Shown: positions 3,260 through 24,487 of the stretch, piece by piece
Position numbering within the stretch: the stretch's first letter is position 1
Layout: each line of letters begins with the position of its first letter
Origin: Saccoglossus kowalevskii
Taxonomy: Eukaryota > Hemichordata > Enteropneusta > Harrimaniidae
Assembly (NCBI RefSeq): GCF_000003605.2
Contig: NW_003119425.1
Span: 1,690,140 to 1,715,985 of the forward strand
DNA: 25,846 nucleotides
Direction of reading: 5' to 3'
Position numbers and translations under genes: made by a program
The notes under the pieces: generated by a model
Database searches by the model: none
What the model was told of the DNA's origin: nothing
Seen by the model: only the letters and a program-made list of their open reading frames with translations

Positions 3260-3850
3260 CTATATCATTTCTTGCATTCCGGAATTGGATCTTGGTCGTT
3301 TATGTATGGATTTTGGTATGGATGGTATTAGACATTACGGGTTCCTGATGCACATCATTTTGTTTTTCAGATCAGATTGTTTTTAATGAATGCTGTTCTT
3401 GAGTCATATCTCTGATATGCTTTGACTGATTATGTTCAAATTTTATATAATCATTATGCATCATGTCATACATTTAGATATACAGATAGATTTGTTTGTC
3501 GATCCAATTCAAAATGGCTGAATGACGGCCATTTTTGTGCTGAAAAATCATCAAAATCAAGCATTTCTGGCATTCTGAAACTGGATCTCAGCTGTTTACA
3601 GATAGATTTCATTCAAACTTAGTACATATATAGGACATTACAGAACCTTGATGCATGTCATTTTAGTTTTCCGATCAAATTCAATATGGTCAATCGGTGG
3701 CCATTTTGTTTTAATAAATGCTGTTCCAGAGTAATATCTCTCAATATGGACAAGTACTCGTTTGATTGTCAATCATTTTAATGTTGAAAAATAATCATAA
3801 TTCAAGCATCCATATCTCTGACATGTTTATATTCAAACTATATTACTATA
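3260..3850. repeat. old, diverged tandem repeat of about 300 bp
   Basis: Several landmarks occur twice in the same order: GCATTC..GGATCT (3274 and 3570), GACATTA..CTTGATGCA or its variant (3332 and 3634), TCATTTT(G/A)GTTTT followed by CGATCAAATT or its variant (3355 and 3659), and TGCTGTTC before a TATCTCT phrase (3391 and 3719). Spacings range from about 296 to 328 bp because the copies carry indels. A submotif of AATGGC or AATATGG followed by GCCATTTTTGT or a variant appears at 3508 and again at 3680. The 66-codon open frame at 3422-3622 lies wholly inside the repeat and is treated as chance. Confidence 0.65.
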
Positions 3851-5112
3851 AACAAAATTATATATTTTAAATTTGATAACTAATGGGGACTGTGACATGC
3901 AGCCTGCAAATAAAATTAACATGTACTTTGGAGGGTACATCTTTAGCTACAATAAGATGTCTGCTGAGTTCACATGCAATGGCCGTTCTGATCATTCCAT
4001 AGGGTGAATCCCCTCTGGCCAACCCAGTTGCTTACAACACTTACATTGCTCTGCAAGGTTGCATTGATTGATTTCATCTAGGCAATCAGGTCAATTATGG
4101 ACAAGAACATCAAATGTCCACTCTCCAGTCATTTTAAAAATGGCGCATTAATTAATTGATCACAGCCTGAGATCCAACAGTGGGTGTATTTGACCTAGAA
4201 CATTGCCTGACTATTGAATTAGAGCCTCGTATGTTGTAAATTGCAATTATATACAGAAATATACTCTTTCAATGGAAGTGGGGAGGGGGGGGGGGGTGTG
4301 TGTGTTAATTAATGTATTTATTTGTTGCAACCCATTTGAATCAGGACACTATTCAATAGATAGGAGTTGCAAAACGTTTGCAAGAAAGAACATAATGTTG
4401 CAGGGCTTTATCTCCCTAGTACTTTTATAATAGACCTGGTAAGTCAAGTGATATACTTGATTTTAATGACTGTGTATTGGTTCTGCAAACATACTCAGCT
4501 GGGGGATTTGGGTTAACATTAGTAACTCTCAGAGAGGTTTTTAAACATTTGTGGAAAAAAAAAATTATGTAGGGGAAAAGGAAAAGAAAGGAAAAAAACA
4601 AAAAACAGCTTAAATTTAAGTGAAGGAATAATTTTCCAAGTTTTTTTAGTCAGCTCTTTTAATAGCTACTGGATAAGTCAGTTTTAAGACACAACACAAT
4701 TTTAAAAATTCTTTCTGTCCATTGATTGATTTAGTAAGTGATATTCACCTGTTTACACAGTTCAATCAGTCATGTTACTATTCTTGAACAGTGGAGGAAT
4801 CTTGGCAGCTGCTGTTCATTCCAGTCATTATTATACTTTCTGTATTCAATGATATAATTATGCTTTACAACTTAAACTCAGGTCAAAATTATTAAATATT
4901 TGCTCTAGATCTTGCCTGCCTCTTTTGACGTTCAATGTTTTAAATTTTGTGAGAACAAATTTCTGCTAATTCAGTGAGTCTCGAAAATTTCTAGTCATTT
5001 TGGAACTATTTCTATAAGAAATGTTACAGAATTATTTTATAAAAAAATAGACAGAATTCATCAGAATTTACAAATAATTCAGGACAACCATAATTATCAA
5101 TTTTACATAACT
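3851..5112. other. no gene seen; contains a G-run with GT tail
   Basis: Anonymous AT-rich sequence. The only distinct items are a near-uninterrupted G run at about 4278-4296 followed by a short (GT)n, and an A/G-rich stretch near 4555-4605. No coding signal is visible. Confidence 0.6.
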
Positions 5113-5455
5113 AATACTGTAAAGTGCTTTATTTTTGCTCAATCAGTGAAAATAAATTCCGCCGAAATGAACTTTTTCTATATTTTACATTCCACTCATC
5201 CAAAAACAACAAAAATAGACTTCATACAAAACAGCTGAAATGTCTTTTCAGTGAAAATTGATTCCTGCTAACTTTTTTCTCACTGTATGTACGCAAACAA
5301 CATTTTGAGATATAATGAAACCTTATTACCATAGCAACCAATGATAAATTGCTCAAAAGACACAACAGCTGCATAACAGTGAATTTTGCAAATTTTTGTC
5401 CTGGTGATGAAAATTAAATGTTATACCGTGTTATACAGCTGAGGTTACTGTATTA
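5113..5455. mobile_element. small non-autonomous TIR element (MITE-like), TACTGTAAA family
   Basis: The left end reads AATACTGTAAAGTGC. Read on the opposite strand, the right end gives AATACAGTAACC, so the outer ten bases match as inverted repeats with one mismatch. The roughly 340-bp interior has no open frame and contains TCAGTGAAAAT repeated at 5145 and 5248. The same terminal motif bounds elements at 14472-14712 and 23897-24109. This fits a miniature inverted-repeat element moved by a transposase encoded elsewhere. The exact target-site duplication is not clear, so the boundaries are approximate. Confidence 0.5.
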
Positions 5456-6215
5456 TTAGGATTATTGGCTAGTTATCACATATTTATAGTCATATATTCA
5501 CATTATTTGGATTATAATAAATCTTTAAAAAAAACATCTAAGGGATTTCTATAAGAAAAATGGCCGTGAATGAATGAAATCCAAATTCTACAAATTTCAT
5601 AACTTAAAGGGGAACCGCTCAATCCCTTGGAATGCACCAAAGAATCATGGGACACTATTGTTTATGTTGTTTACAATGTTAATCTATCTTTTGTTATCCA
5701 TTGTTATTTTAATCCAGAAAGTAAATTTGTTGTAAAATTAATCTTAACTGGAAGGTGCCCCTTTAAACTCAAAAAAAAAAAAATTCTAGATAATTTCGAC
5801 TACGATAATCAATATTTCATTGTCGGACAACTAACAAGAAATCACTTTTTGAAAATTGACAACTACTTTTGTAAGACAGTATAACAGTTTTTTTTTTCTT
5901 GATTATGTTGATTGTATGACTTCCCTAAGGAACCCTTTGTTGCCTTGGTCATAACTATGTTATGGCTTGTTTTGCCACAAGGCAGATAATCGAAAGTGCT
6001 AATGTAGGATATATGTTCATATTTAAGTTTCATGTTTCAATATTAAGTTTCAAGTTGTGCCAGTTACACAATATAATAACTAAAGAAAAATTTTAGTTTC
6101 AACTAAAAAAGTAATTTATTGCTAAACATGTTTAACATGTGATTGAAGATATTTGTAGAGGGCGCTATCTCAGCTTTTGCGAACTAAGTTTTTTTTTCAA
6201 AATTCTTAATATTAT
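5456..6215. other. no recognisable gene
   Basis: AT-rich DNA with homopolymer runs (A at 5770-5781, T at 5888-5897). An 85-codon open frame at 5627-5884 is AT-driven, lysine- and asparagine-rich and crosses the A-run. It has no family resemblance or splice context, so I leave it uncalled. Confidence 0.55.
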
Positions 6216-6607
6216 GATGATATTACGAGGATATTGCAAAGTATGCAAGAAGACAGTACAGCAAAAGTATCAACCGAGGCGCAGCAGAGGTCAGTGCAAC
6301 TGCATACTGTCTGAGTGCGTACTTTGCAGTATCCTTGTATTAACCTTATTTATATTATATATCTTTTCCTCCCAGGGATACATCATGGGAATGCCGAAAT
6401 CCAAAACGTTTAGAACAGATTTAGCGAACTTCTTTGTGTGGGGGCAGCCATGTTTGTTTTTATTGTTAGAAGACGCTTACGCGCATAGTCGTTCTATATT
6501 TGGAATTTACATTTCCTAATATGGTAGATTGAAAATACCCAGTGCAATACCGCAAAATTACGGCACGCTGTAACTTATGGCCTCACAGTGACAGATGTAT
6601 AATAATA
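6216..6607 (+). repeat. dispersed fold-back repeat, copy 1
   Basis: About 390 bp matching a second copy at 22959-23340 in the same orientation. The 5' part is a long imperfect palindrome: the left arm at 6221-6258 (TATTACGAGGATATTGCAAA and on) pairs with the right arm at 6301-6343 (ending CAGTATCCTTGTATTAA). Next come a pyrimidine tract ending in CCCAG (to about 6375), a conserved block (CATCATGGGAATGCC, AAATCCAAAACGTT, AGAACAGATTTAGC), and a tail ending TGACAGATGTATAATAATA. Its short outer ends, ATTATTA-like on the left and TAATAAT on the right, look like a terminal inverted repeat. Similarity to copy 2 stops near 6607. A 126-codon frame through this copy is not kept through copy 2's hairpin, so I do not call a gene. 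Confidence 0.8.
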
Positions 6608-12675: not shown

Positions 12676-13330
12676 CTAGTAATAAGTGAGTATGAATGAG
12701 TATAAGTAGTGAGTTAGAATGAGTACATTAGTGAGAATGAGTATGAGTTTGTGAGTATGAATGAATTTTATGAGTAGTGAAAGTGAGTTTGAGTAGAGAA
12801 TGAGTATGTGTGAATAGTGAGTATGAGCAAGTATTATAAGTACTGAGTGAAAATGAGAATGAGTGAGTATGACTAGTGAGTATGGGTTTGAGCATGATTG
12901 GTGAGAAAGAAGAGAGAATGAGTGAATGAATTTGTGAATAAGTATGAAGTTTTGAATATGAGTAGTGAGAATGAGTATTAGTAGTGAGTATGGGCTAGTT
13001 TGAGCATGAGTGGTGGGTGAGTATGAGAGAGTGAGTGAATGATTTGATTTGGTGAATAAGTATGAGTCTGTGAATATGAGTAGAGAATGTGAGTATGAGT
13101 AGTATATGAGTTTGAGAACAAGAAGTAAGAATGAGTATGAGTAGTGAATATGGGTGAGTTTGAGCATGAGTGGTGAGAATAAGTGGTGAATGACTGAGAG
13201 AGTGAATGAATGAGTTTGGTATATGTGAGTTTGAGCATGAGTAGTGAGAAAGAAAAATAATAAGATAATGACCATGAGTGAGTTTGTGTCATCAGTATGA
13301 GTAGCGTGTATGAGTGAGTTTGTGAATGAA
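12676..13330. repeat. GAGTATGAGTAGTGA-type minisatellite, about 650 bp
   Basis: A dense, imperfect array of GAGTATGAGT, GAGTAGTGA, GTGAATGAGT and TTTGAGCATGAGT phrases. The marker TTTGAGCATGA recurs at 12887, 12999, 13159 and 13230, so higher-order spacing is irregular (112, 160 and 71 bp). The + strand is strongly depleted in C and rich in G, A and T. The repeat lacks stops in some antisense frames, which creates artificial antisense frames of 199 and 161 codons made of repeated S, H, T, L, I and Y. Those are composition artefacts, not genes. Confidence 0.9.
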
Positions 13331-19970: not shown

Positions 19971-20076
19971 ATTCTGCAGACGAAGCCATGTGGTACAGTT
20001 GTAGCAGGATTGTCACTGTTGAGTCATCTGTGTCAAAGTCTACCTGCAATAGTACATCCTTTACTGATTAATCAAG
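19971..20076 (+). CDS. mei1: MEI1-like exon A (internal, first recognised)
   Basis: Acceptor TTTTTTTACTCTACCAG precedes 19971 and donor CAAG|GTAATA follows 20076. The 106 nt enter in phase 0 and leave in phase 1, encoding ILQTKPCGTVVAGLSLLSHL then CQSLPAIVHPLLINQ. Other entry phases meet stops, which fixes the frame. A second possible acceptor lies nine bases in, after ATTCTGCAG, and would drop only I-L-Q. The content is two hydrophobic helices. Confidence 0.75.
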
Positions 20077-23000
20077 GTAATATCAGACCCTGCCAGATTA
20101 ATAAGGTCAAAAGAAAAATTAAGTTTGCCACATCCATTTTTATTTATATAAATATGTGATCTGTACTATGATGATGAATGATTCCTTCAAATACATTTAA
20201 GTTAAAAAAAAAGTAGTCACAGAAACATGGAGTTAACTTAGGTAAAGTGCACATGTATAAAGTAGACATGTATAACTTTTTAGACAGTAGGTGCTCTCTA
20301 AAAATAAATTGTGAAAAATGTTTTGTAAGTTTAAAAAAAGGATTAATAAATAATTAACTATTTTTGCCAAACAGGGTCTTTGATACAATGCAGGGTAAGA
20401 ATTACACTAGTATTCTGTTGAAAAAAAATATAAAAATTGAAGTGTTTGTTCAGGATTCTCAGGTTAGCCCTGGTTAATCAGTCATTTATTATCCAAGCAT
20501 ACAAGACAGTATGTGTGATGGGGCATAGACTGAAAGGATTAAGCATTACCAGGCTGAATGGAACTATCTTGGGACTAAACACATAATGACACTTTGATGA
20601 AGAGACTTATTGTACTGGGTACTCCAGAAGTAAAACTCTGGTGATCATTTTGATGATTTTCCTTTGCTGTATGCAACTCAAATCAATTGTTTTCCACATG
20701 GTAGTTATATTCTGTAAATTAAATTAAACTTTACTGAAACTATCTCAAAATTGATTGACCATGTTGGCTGGTTTAAACCCCTCTCAATACGTTAACATTT
20801 TTACCACCAGACTTTATATTCTTCTGTAAATGACCCTAATTTTGGAGGCAACAGACACAATTTGAATTAATTTTTACTCAAAAAATGTTTACTATTTTTG
20901 TCCCAATCTTCTGAAAGAAAGTGCAAATGCGACTATTTTGCGAATTTGTGATGAAAAGAGGAAACTGGTTGTGCAAAGGTGAATATATGACCTCTCCCAA
21001 ATACATCTTATGAGGGCGCTATGTTGTTGTTAAGCTTGGTGATTCATATTCGCTCAGTGTAGTTAGTACCTGTCAATGAACAACTCTTCTAAAACTGGTT
21101 TAGACTTTCATTTGGTAACTATAAACAGAATGGTGAATTAAAATTTATTCCAACAAATTAGAGCGGCAAATATTTTTGGCCTTCAGGGATGATAATATAC
21201 ACATATGTGTCTCATTAAATAATTGTACTTGACTAGCATTTACTAACATAATTGATTGACGTAATTGATAGAAGTAGTTATTGGTTGTTCATCTGTATAT
21301 CTAATATATGAAATCAAGCAGAGAATTTTTGTGAGTGTGATTTACATTCAACTGTAAGTCATGTAATTTAAAGTTACACAGTCATTGTACCATGTATTAT
21401 TCGATACAGGCTCCATGCGATGTATGAAACATCAAACAAGATTGACCTCTATGTGTGCATGCATGCATTTTCTTTTCGAGATGAGTTTCTGCACTAATTT
21501 TTATCTGGTCTGCACAGTGAGAATGTTGAAATTAGTCTTCCATTATGTATATATTTAGTTATGCTGTTTATCCACCCTTGTTTTCTACTCCAGATGAAAT
21601 TCTTCAATACTTATTATCTGGTCTGCATAGTGAGAATATAGAGATTCAGTCTTCCATTATGTATACATTCATCCACTGACACTGCAAACCCTTATGTTTA
21701 TCCACCCTTGTTTTCTCTTCTATACGAGATTCTTCACTACTTATTATCTGGTCTGCACAGTGAGGATGTAGAGATTCAGTCTTCCATGATGTATACATTC
21801 ACTGACAATGCAAACCCTTATGTTTATCCACCTTTGTTTTCTCTTCTAGACGAGGTTCTTCACTACTTATTATGTGGTCTGCACAGTGAGGATGTAGAGA
21901 TTCAGTCTTCCATGATGTATACATTCACTGACACTGCAAACCCTTATGTTTATCCACCCTTGTTTTCTCTTCTAGACGAGATTCTGCACTACTTATTATC
22001 TGGTCTGCACAGTGAGGATGTAGAGATTCAGTCTTCCATTATGTATACATTGAGCAGTGTTTATAGCGACGTTGATAATATCTCAAGTCAACTACATAAA
22101 CCATTGTGCCACAATATATTAGTGGTGTTAGAGAGTACACAGTCACAACAACTTATCACAAATACTGTGGGTGAGTACTGGTATATAAATCACTGGGCTG
22201 GCTTTATAATGAGAAACCTTACATGGAATTTGAGATAATTATAGAGAAATTCATTGGTGCATTGTTTTAGTCTGATACAATAAATAGAGGGAGATTTTGG
22301 ATACCAAACATTATGTACTTCCTAGGTTAATGGTGCTTTAAATGCACATTATAGTAAAGATGATATTAACTTAGTCATTAGTCAGTGAAATATGTCAGTT
22401 AATTTAGACTAGGATAGCTAGTGAATATTTCAACAAAATGTTGCGGACCCTCTAATTTTAGAAAACCTATCATATTCCCTCACAGTCATTTTCAACTTCT
22501 ATGTAATTGCACAATGTGTATTTCCACACCAGGAGAATGCCTAGCGAAATCAGTTTTTTGAACCAAATTTGAAATTGGAAAAAATAAAGATTATTCAGAA
22601 AATAATATGAGACCAGTGTTGAACAGTACTTCTTTAATATGGGTATTTGTTGTTCTTTGAATGTTGCAGGATTGCTTAAGAAACTATTGGCTAATCAATC
22701 TTTGGCAGAAAGTTTTATGAATTATCATGGAGATGTATCACTACCATCTGTACTCAAAAAGGTAATATTTAATAATGATATCATAATGTCATATACTAGG
22801 AGGCATCAGTCTAATTATGATTATATTGTCATGTGATGCATGTATTTGCAACAGTTGTTGCTGTATATTTTGTGTTTTATTAATATAATCATAATTAGGC
22901 TATCGTTCAATCCAGGTATACCGCTCAACATTGCACAGTGCAGATGCTTATACATATGAGATTATTACGAGCATACTGCAAATTATGCACAAAGACAGTA

Positions 23001-24487
23001 CAGCGACAGTATCGACCGACACTCAGCAGAGGTCGATGTGATAGCATACTGTCTTAGTGCATAATTTGCAGTATCCTCGTAATAACCTTATTATTATACG
23101 TCTTTTCCTCCCAGGAATACATCATGGGAATGCCAAAATCCAAAACGTTGAGAACAGATTTAGCAAACTTTGTTAGGGGTCAAGTCAAAGCCTGGGAGCC
23201 ATGTTTGTTTTTATTAGTAGTCGTTCCATATTTGGAATTTGCGATTCCTAATATGGAAGGATGAAAATACCCAGTGCAATACCGAAAAATTACGACACGC
23301 TGTAACTTATGGTGTTACGGTGACAGATGTATAATAATATTTCTTACTTGTGGTATTTTGATATGGTTTAAACATTGATTTTAAAATAAGTTGAAGCTCA
23401 CCGGACCTTGGACCGGAATACTTTCTCTTAACTGAAACATATACCGCGGGTACCGAATAAACTTATCAGGTGTTTTTTATGACTTATGTTTTCACCTGTT
23501 TCATCTACTGTTAAGGTTTACTTTCTTGTGACTAAGTAACTCCTGCTTTATCCATAGATATTGTTACAGTGTTCTGCTGTGAGTATTAAGATTGCTGCTG
23601 TTCAGTGTCTATGTCAACTACTGGTTCAAAACGACCAGTATGCGGCACTTTTTTTACAAGCTGATATTGCAGAGTTTCTTTACGAAACCCTCGCTACAAC
23701 TGATCATTTACTAATTGGGTAAGTTTGTTAACTTTATTTATTAATACTCGAGCACAATTGAAAAATGGATGAACATCATTCATGTATATTAGGATTTTAT
23801 CAAATTGAAGATGTGTTGTATAAATTGAGATGATCACAAAAACATACATTTCTAGTATGTTTGTGAAGAAACTGGTCAGTGTTCGTCTCAGACTGTGCTG
23901 TAAAAAGGTTAATTATTCACTGCGTTTTAATTTTGCTTATTTCGCTGACTGGAAAATGTCCTAAATTAAAACCCAGTGAATATGTAAAATTGAGCATAGA
24001 ACACATTATCTAAATTATAAAATCATGAACTTAAAACCTACTGAATATGCCTGAAATGCTAAGTCAGTGAAATTTAAACTCATGAAAATTAGTCATTTTA
24101 CAGTATTGGTAATGTCCTTGAATATTTCAAAGTAGTAGTATGGACCAATCAAATTACAACATTAAACATATACATCATGTGACACATATTGACATGTATT
24201 TGTTTCAACTGCTGATTCAAAATGGCTGACTCATTGTCTGTGTCATGTGATTTGTTTTTGTTGATTTACCCCTCTGTTGAAAGTGAATTATAAAATATAA
24301 AGTATTTTAGTTACAGTATGTTACTTAAACTGTCTTTTTATTACAGTTCTGTGCTGTGTTGTTTATTATTACTAAGTAACTCAGAAGACTTCTACAGTAA
24401 ATGTCATAGTGTCTATGGCATGGAAGCTATCATTAGGTCCATTCAACACTGCTTGCAATCAAACCGACTGAAAGTTGCTGCTGAGGG
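19971..24487 (+). CDS. mei1: MEI1-like meiotic double-strand-break protein, partial, five exons
   Basis: Joining 19971-20076, 21976-22170, 22670-22761, 23558-23718 and 24347-24487 gives 695 nt, 231 codons plus two bases, open throughout, with intron phases 1, 1, 0, 2 and 2. The residues are leucine-rich amphipathic helices typical of armadillo/HEAT repeats. Diagnostic phrases are GLHSEDVEIQSSIMYTLSSV, LQADIAEFLYETLAT and YSKCHSVYGMEAIIRSIQ, which I associate with vertebrate MEI1 from memory. MEI1 is known to be needed for meiotic DNA double-strand breaks, acts in the nucleus of germ cells, and is related to plant PRD1; the human protein is roughly 1,270 residues. This is therefore an internal fragment, perhaps a fifth of the protein. 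The N-terminal exons were not found and the last donor points beyond what can be resolved. Another armadillo protein cannot be excluded without a search. Confidence 0.62.
21440..22051 (+). repeat. tandem duplication of an intron end plus exon start, about 5 copies, 126-bp unit
   Basis: The phrase CTGGTCTGCA or a variant begins at 21505, 21618, 21748, 21874 and 22000, giving spacings of 113, 130, 126 and 126 bp. Each unit holds a pyrimidine-rich 3' splice-site region, then the exon start DE(I/V/F)L.., then a stretch encoding TFTDTANPYVYPP in the newer copies. Equivalent exon starts are 21481, 21594, 21724, 21850 and 21976. Acceptor AGs are weak in copy 1 (TTCGAG), present in copy 2 (CTCCAG), lost in copy 3 (TTCTAT) and intact in copies 4 and 5 (TTCTAG). 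Copy 1 has an early stop, and copy 2 has a stop after a 4-base insertion. Copies 3 to 5 form one continuous frame from 21708 through the exon. Confidence 0.92.
21976..22170 (+). CDS. mei1: MEI1-like exon B, preceded by tandem partial copies of itself
   Basis: Acceptor CTTGTTTTCTCTTCTAG ends at 21975; donor GTGG|GTGAGT follows 22170. The 195 nt enter in phase 1 (G plus AC gives Asp) and leave in phase 1. The peptide starts DEILHYLLSGLHSEDVEIQS, runs through SSIMYTLSSVYSDVDNI, and ends ESTQSQQLITNTV. The first 75 or so bases and about 50 bases of the preceding intron are tandemly repeated upstream. This is the only copy followed by the rest of the exon and by a donor, so it is the functional one in the simplest model. 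Confidence 0.8.
22670..22761 (+). CDS. mei1: MEI1-like exon C
   Basis: Acceptor TTGAATGTTGCAG ends at 22669; donor AAAAAG|GTAATA follows 22761. The 92 nt enter in phase 1 and leave in phase 0, encoding GLLKKLLANQSLAESFMN and then YHGDVSLPSVLKK. The split glycine (G plus GA) confirms the junction with the previous exon. Confidence 0.8.
22959..23340 (+). repeat. dispersed fold-back repeat, copy 2, inside intron 3
   Basis: Same family and orientation as 6216-6607. The palindrome is cleaner here: left arm 22961-23000 (ATTATTACGAGCATACTGCA and on) pairs with 23043-23085 (ending TTTGCAGTATCCTCGTAATA), and the loop contains a smaller CGACC/GGTCG stem. It is followed by TTTTCCTCCCAG to 23114, the conserved CATCATGGGAATGCC block, and the tail ending GATGTATAATAATA. 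Relative to copy 1 there is extra sequence near 23180-23205 and a deletion near 23220. Confidence 0.85.
23558..23718 (+). CDS. mei1: MEI1-like exon D
   Basis: Acceptor TGCTTTATCCATAG ends at 23557; donor TTGG|GTAAGT follows 23718. The 161 nt enter in phase 0 and leave in phase 2, encoding ILLQCSAVSIKIAAVQCL, CQLLVQNDQYAALFLQADIA and EFLYETLATTDHLLIG. The LFLQADIAEFLYE segment is one of the best family signatures in this gene. The composition is more GC-balanced than in the flanking introns. Confidence 0.82.
23897..24109. mobile_element. small TIR element inside intron 4, TACTGTAAA family
   Basis: The left end is GCTGTAAAAAGG. Read on the opposite strand, the right end is CCAATACTGTAAAATGAC. 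Inside, TCACTGCGTTTTAATTT (23917-23933) and AAATTAAAACCCAGTGA (23963-23979) form a 17-base hairpin with one mismatch, and CTGAATATG or GTGAATATG phrases recur. It has no open frame. It matches the small elements at 5113 and 14472 in end sequence. Confidence 0.5.
24347..24487 (+). CDS. mei1: MEI1-like exon E (last recognised)
   Basis: Acceptor TGTCTTTTTATTACAG ends at 24346; donor GAGGG|GTAAGT follows 24487. The 141 nt enter in phase 2 and leave in phase 2, encoding SVLCCLLLLSNSEDF, YSKCHSVYGMEAIIRSIQ and HCLQSNRLKVAAEG. The SKCHSVYGMEA stretch is the strongest reason for the MEI1 call. No convincing next exon was found before 25846, so the gene continues to the right. Confidence 0.82.

Follow-up and report, generated by a model that had tools for sequence, protein, structure and literature searches.

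Tandem copies of an intron/exon boundary form a minisatellite-like array in the hemichordate Saccoglossus kowalevskii

In lancelets, minisatellite-like tandem duplications of an intron/exon boundary have been described under the name of mirage (PMC3087553). The amphioxus BflGb6 mirage occurs in haplotypes with three and six units, which are 81-100% identical and homogenised among the inner units, and RT-PCR suggested that regular splicing is undisturbed by it (PMC3087553). Boundary duplications with apparently undisturbed splicing are also described for the lancelet genes PGBD5, Adh, and TnC (PMC3902484). In potato, the RdRp gene is reported to have gained an intron via tandem duplication of an intron-exon boundary, with a donor located in the exon part (PMC4974935). 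In human segmental duplications, variable internal tandem repeats are found at exon-intron boundaries, and most coding units longer than 60 bp are in-frame ones (15 of 20; Table 2 of PMC2812944).

Here we analyze a comparable array in S. kowalevskii. The window, i.e., the whole stretch of DNA analyzed, spans 25,846 nucleotides (G000:C1210:1690140-1715985) of a 572-Mb assembly comprising 4830 contigs. It contains five phase-matched exons of the host gene, of which the first two, exon A and the exon at the end of the array, are described in Table 1, and the others lie at 22670-22761, 23558-23718, and 24347-24487. Exon-like stretches continue further along the gene at 33534-39071, in numbering continued beyond the window end. 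The phase 1 exit of exon A, as called in the original prediction, was recovered. The exon at the end of the array is flanked by an upstream intron of 1899 nt (1773 nt if copy 4 is used) and a downstream intron of 499 nt. A search with Rfam (gathering scores) and for tRNAs returned no match. All splice and exon scoring relied on hand-entered donor and acceptor matrices.

Table 1. Features of the boundary array and its upstream exon, in window coordinates.
Feature	Range	Strand	First exon or exon-like base	GTGAG	Description
Exon A (upstream exon)	19971..20076	+			106 nt; phase 1 exit; ag/gt signals and open frame
Copy 1 (oldest-looking)	21468..21580	+	21481	21517	In-frame TAA; 1-nt deletion; acceptor GAG (weak)
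Copy 2	21581..21710	+	21594	21630	CAG acceptor intact; 130 nt before copy 3
Copy 3	21711..21836	+	21724	21760	Acceptor AG changed to AT (TAG to TAT); frame open
Copy 4	21837..21962	+	21850	21886	AG 21848-21849 intact; pyrimidine tract and branch-like motifs like those of copy 5; 21850-21975 gives 42 potential codons
Donor-like GTGAGG in copy 4	21886..21891	+			Weak score; ranks in the top 5.3% among the window's 1653 + strand GT sites
Copy 5 (real exon)	21976..22170	+	21976	22012	195 nt; acceptor AG 21974-21975; donor TGG/GTGAGT

Several other features were noted in the surroundings. A satellite-like array (period 157, 5.4 copies, 92% matches) occupies positions 1-845, starting at the first base of the window, and TGAGTA-rich repeats at 12687-13116 form a degenerate array whose higher-order periods are 112-118. 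The open stretches 6136-6516 and 23058-23261, the second of them within the gene's own intron 22762-23557, have the reading YIMGMPKSKT.RTDLANF in common, and they likely belong to a dispersed element since they share it. Exon-like stretches upstream of the gene, at 3618-5524 (L006) and at -24168 to -19889 relative to the window (L005/L004), may represent gene neighbors; their putative assignments are WD40-like (+ strand) and UVRAG-like (- strand).

The end of the 1899-nt intron carries a tandem array of five copies of the intron-end/exon-start boundary, the last copy being the real exon. The spacing from copy to copy is 113, 130, 126, and 126 bp, and TRF independently detected the array at 21565-22051 with a period of 126, 3.8 copies, a score of 819, and 92% matches. 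Both results agree with the earlier claim of a distance of exactly 126 bp from copy 3 to copy 4 and from copy 4 to copy 5. The exon start matched the four upstream copies by blastn with E values of 1.7e-21 to 9.9e-31, and the array is therefore far beyond chance. The 126-bp unit comprises 76 exon-like and 50 intron-like bases, and copies 4 and 5 agree at 72 of the 76 exon-like bases. The range first proposed for the array, 21708..22238, holds for copies 3 to 5 but leaves out the two upstream copies (21481 and 21594), and its end lies too far downstream, since the real exon stops at 22170 and 22171-22238 belongs to the next intron. Likewise, the frame of the real exon is open as predicted, but it extends beyond the proposed limit of 21708, back to 21642. 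Extra copies within 4 kb were present at 1 of 32 exon ends (both ends of 16 real or predicted exons), only at exon 21976-22170; these 16 exons, most of which are unproven predictions with many N in the sequence outside the window, were picked by eye and consist of 15 of the 26 listed stretches (21976 replacing 21850, 11 stretches omitted) plus 39489-39616. The best matches to the 27-nt spacer, for which a source was sought elsewhere in the window, reached 16 of 27 bases on the + strand outside the array and 17 of 27 on the other strand.

Compared with the BflGb6 mirage as described in PMC3087553, the array is built alike: the 3′ end of an intron and the 5′ part of an exon are repeated in tandem in several units, and splice signals are kept in many but not all units. 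The likeness extends in part to the similarity of the inner units and the divergence at the edge. The repeats cross the exon-intron boundary, their unit is of minisatellite size (126 bp in five copies, against 10-160 bp in the cited cases), and the acceptor AG is intact in copies 2, 4, and 5, weak in copy 1 (GAG), and lost in copy 3. Over the first 58 exon bases, copies 3 to 5 are mutually 95-98% identical, copy 2 is 86-90% identical to them, and copy 1 is 74-79% identical to the other four. The pattern of homogenised inner units and diverged edges is thus seen upstream (copies 1 and 2) but is absent downstream, where copy 5 is close to copies 3 and 4. The two systems differ in gene and in unit length, which is 150-160 bp in BflGb6, and BflGb6 has haplotype and RT-PCR data whereas the array here is known from the sequence of one assembly. 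PGBD5 (repeats of 60 and 108 bp), Adh, and TnC also resemble it in having tandem repeats at splice sites, although these are other genes and the PGBD5 repeats involve splice sites of both kinds, 5′ as well as 3′ (PMC3902484). By this comparison, we judge the array to belong to the known mirage kind, which is best described in lancelets.

The explanation that we favor, with a probability of about 0.78, is a minisatellite-like, mirage-type array of a 3′ intron/exon boundary in which 20076-21976 is the probable normal junction and copy 4 is a likely minor acceptor. A 126-bp piece, made of the last ~50 bp of the intron and the first 76 bp of the exon, would have been duplicated in tandem, and the array would then have grown by unequal exchange or slippage, leaving young inner copies and old copies at the upstream edge. 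The copies, which lack a strong 5′ splice site of their own, would be mostly dead weight inside the 1.9-kb intron. The normal transcript would probably join 20076 to 21976, and copy 4, with its complete acceptor, would probably serve on occasion to give a minor form longer by 42 residues. That the extra copies instead arose from mis-joined reads or from two haplotypes seems very improbable. Tandem arrays are prone to misassembly, and one lancelet globin array was thought by its authors to be aberrantly assembled in the draft (PMC3087553), but each copy here has differences of its own, copies 1 and 2 are well diverged, and the array locus stands alone among the listed own-genome matches, although the exact number of copies 3-5 may prove different. 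In that protein search of the species' own genome, for which ten candidates were scored, 8 of 8 matches fell on the array locus, and no paralogue or processed copy recording the splicing was present among the listed matches.

Three of the four upstream copies are unfit as in-frame extensions, i.e., copy 1 by its stop and deletion, copy 2 by its frame, and copy 3 by the loss of its AG, leaving copy 4 as the sole fully usable one. Copy 2 was considered as an extension start and rejected, as it is out of frame and its read-through hits a stop because 130 nt separate it from copy 3. In copy 4, the AG proved intact and in phase as predicted, and exon A joined to 21850 reads DEVLHYLLCGLHSEDVEIQSSMMYTFTDTANPYVYPPLFSLL, followed by the normal exon, so that the inserted residues are exactly the 42 that had been named. 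Given this phase, frame, and acceptor, the spliced and extended forms are indeed both translatable, with an array exon of 195 nt if it starts at copy 5 and of 321 nt if it starts at copy 4. From -20 to +3, the acceptors of copies 4 and 5 differ solely at -17 (C to T), the pyrimidine count staying at 15 of 17, and four branch-like motifs occupy identical positions in both copies. Since its signals nearly match those of the real site, occasional use of the copy 4 acceptor, yielding a minor in-frame form with 42 additional residues, is plausible. In a survey of alternative acceptors, the upstream site was generally preferred, but significantly less so when both flanking introns were long (PMC9225289). 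Both introns flanking the array exon are long, which is the condition of reduced upstream preference in that survey. As this preference drops with long introns on both sides, the choice of acceptor would not be decided by sequence alone and a mixture of forms is plausible.

With the five exons, Pfam gave helical-repeat matches that all fall below the curated cut-offs (V-ATPase_H_N, 20.2 versus 25.7 bits; Mo25, 17.1 versus 31.2; HEAT, 11.5 versus 23.5), so that among these five of the gene's exons no ARM/HEAT-like family match exceeded its cut-off. A PDB search of the protein gave one match, at E 1.6, and the string of downstream exon-like peptides (33534-39071) gave two Pfam matches below cut-off, its PDB matches having E values of 1.2 and 1.7. 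The earlier designation of the protein as MEI1-like thus found no confirmation in the Pfam and PDB searches. A search for protein relatives among viral, bacterial, and archaeal sequences (viral_contigs and genome_contigs) returned 3 and 39 pattern matches, respectively, none of which was confirmed. A preprint describes Armadillo-like folds for human MEI1 (PMC12642689), and MEI1 splice forms are reported in horses (PMC12691261). The Armadillo-like folds agree with a helical-repeat protein at this locus, but this is no test of MEI1 identity.

One ARM/HEAT repeat is close to 42 residues in length, and use of the copy 4 acceptor would add about one helical repeat. Together with the fitting phase, frame, and acceptor of copy 4, which from -20 to +3 equals the real site bar position -17 and shares its four branch-like motifs, this speaks for the extended form being a regular functional isoform or even the main form. 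So does a crude exon scorer that selected the long version of the exon, 21850-22170, although length alone raises its score. We nevertheless consider such an isoform unlikely. For the normal form, Pfam listed weak matches to V-ATPase_H_N (E 0.00044) and Mo25 (E 0.0035); once the insert was included, neither remained in the list up to E 1, which hints weakly that the insert disrupts the protein's repeat pattern. The predicted fold of the extended exon (107 residues, single sequence) had five helices with a mean pLDDT of 47.5, which is too poor to use and neither supports nor excludes a folded module. The broken state of three of the four upstream copies also argues against a functional role, and the lancelet counterparts, as described in PMC3087553, seem to be normally spliced.

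An open, in-phase unit is likewise not beyond chance. In the parts of the window that belong neither to the five exons nor to the array, a stretch of 48 bases is stop-free in a given frame in 33% of cases (36% for 45 bases and 31% for 51). Multiplied by the one-in-three chance that a period is divisible by three, this gives about 0.11, or roughly one in nine, for a multiple-of-three period with an open intronic part. The three open copies are not independent evidence because later copies of an open unit are open too. Between copies 3 and 4, the 42 codons carry four replacement changes and one silent change, against a neutral replacement fraction of 0.75; these changes fit neutral drift, although five of them prove little. 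In the 25 codons away from the junction, copy 5 differs from copy 4 by replacement and silent changes at 3:1 and from copy 3 at 2:1. Between copies 2 and 5, four changes are silent and three are replacements when the junction is left aside (P = 0.07), or four and four when its codon is counted (P = 0.12), and copies 1 and 5 differ by three silent and four replacement changes, one being a stop (P = 0.26). The silent excess between copies 2 and 5 hints at constraint, possibly from the real exon. In that same comparison, 51 of 58 exon bases and 26 of the last 30 intron bases are alike, so that the exon part of copy 2 proved no better conserved than its intron part. Selection on the 42-residue extension was thus weighed and set aside, the replacement and silent counts being too few to decide and copies 3 and 4 looking neutral. 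The original prediction had presented the locus as intronic sequence recruited as coding sequence; this reading is supported in part, as copy 4 is indeed usable in frame, but the neutral-looking, though very few, changes between copies 3 and 4, the three broken copies, and the seemingly regular splicing of the lancelet counterparts leave actual recruitment doubtful.

Every copy contains a GTGAG 36 nt (12 codons) after the acceptor position (Table 1). Combined with the acceptor of copy 5, the GTGAGG of copy 4 would define a potential in-frame micro-exon of 36 nt and a new intron of 90 nt. An intron could in this way be born from a copy-internal donor and a later acceptor, an event like that of potato RdRp in kind. 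There, too, the duplicate spans an intron end and an exon start, so that acceptor, tract, and branch site are inherited, but the cryptic exon donor was activated, as confirmed by RNA-seq reads, while the GTGAGG here is weak and a candidate donor only (PMC4974935). A similar model was proposed by the lancelet authors (PMC3087553), and the 36-nt distance is in frame in copies 2 and 4, which would yield introns of 346 and 90 nt, respectively, to copy 5. Such a birth nonetheless appears highly unlikely at this locus: the donor-like sites of the array score 1.08-1.47, whereas the genuine donors of the five exons score 2.80-5.55 (with the hand-entered matrix), GTGAGG also lies within the real exon, where it must go ignored, and 36 nt is short for an exon. 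Human boundary repeats, which can be either kept in or spliced from the transcript, have been likened here to the array, but they are documented by paralogues with transcript support, as opposed to one locus and its DNA sequence in our case (PMC2812944).

Arrays that place near-identical acceptors before one donor provide a natural experiment on the spliceosome's choice among equivalent sites, and also on intron and exon gain through tandem duplication. A more speculative possibility, which we regard as rather improbable, is that the boundary minisatellite acts as a protein-length switch: germ-line splicing would employ the acceptor of copy 4, some 50 bp of previously intronic DNA would encode a portion of a 42-residue helical repeat of a meiotic protein, and the number of copies in the array would set how many repeats can be spliced in. 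Should copy 4 be used, the locus would capture intron sequence in the course of turning into coding sequence, with the original form still being produced.
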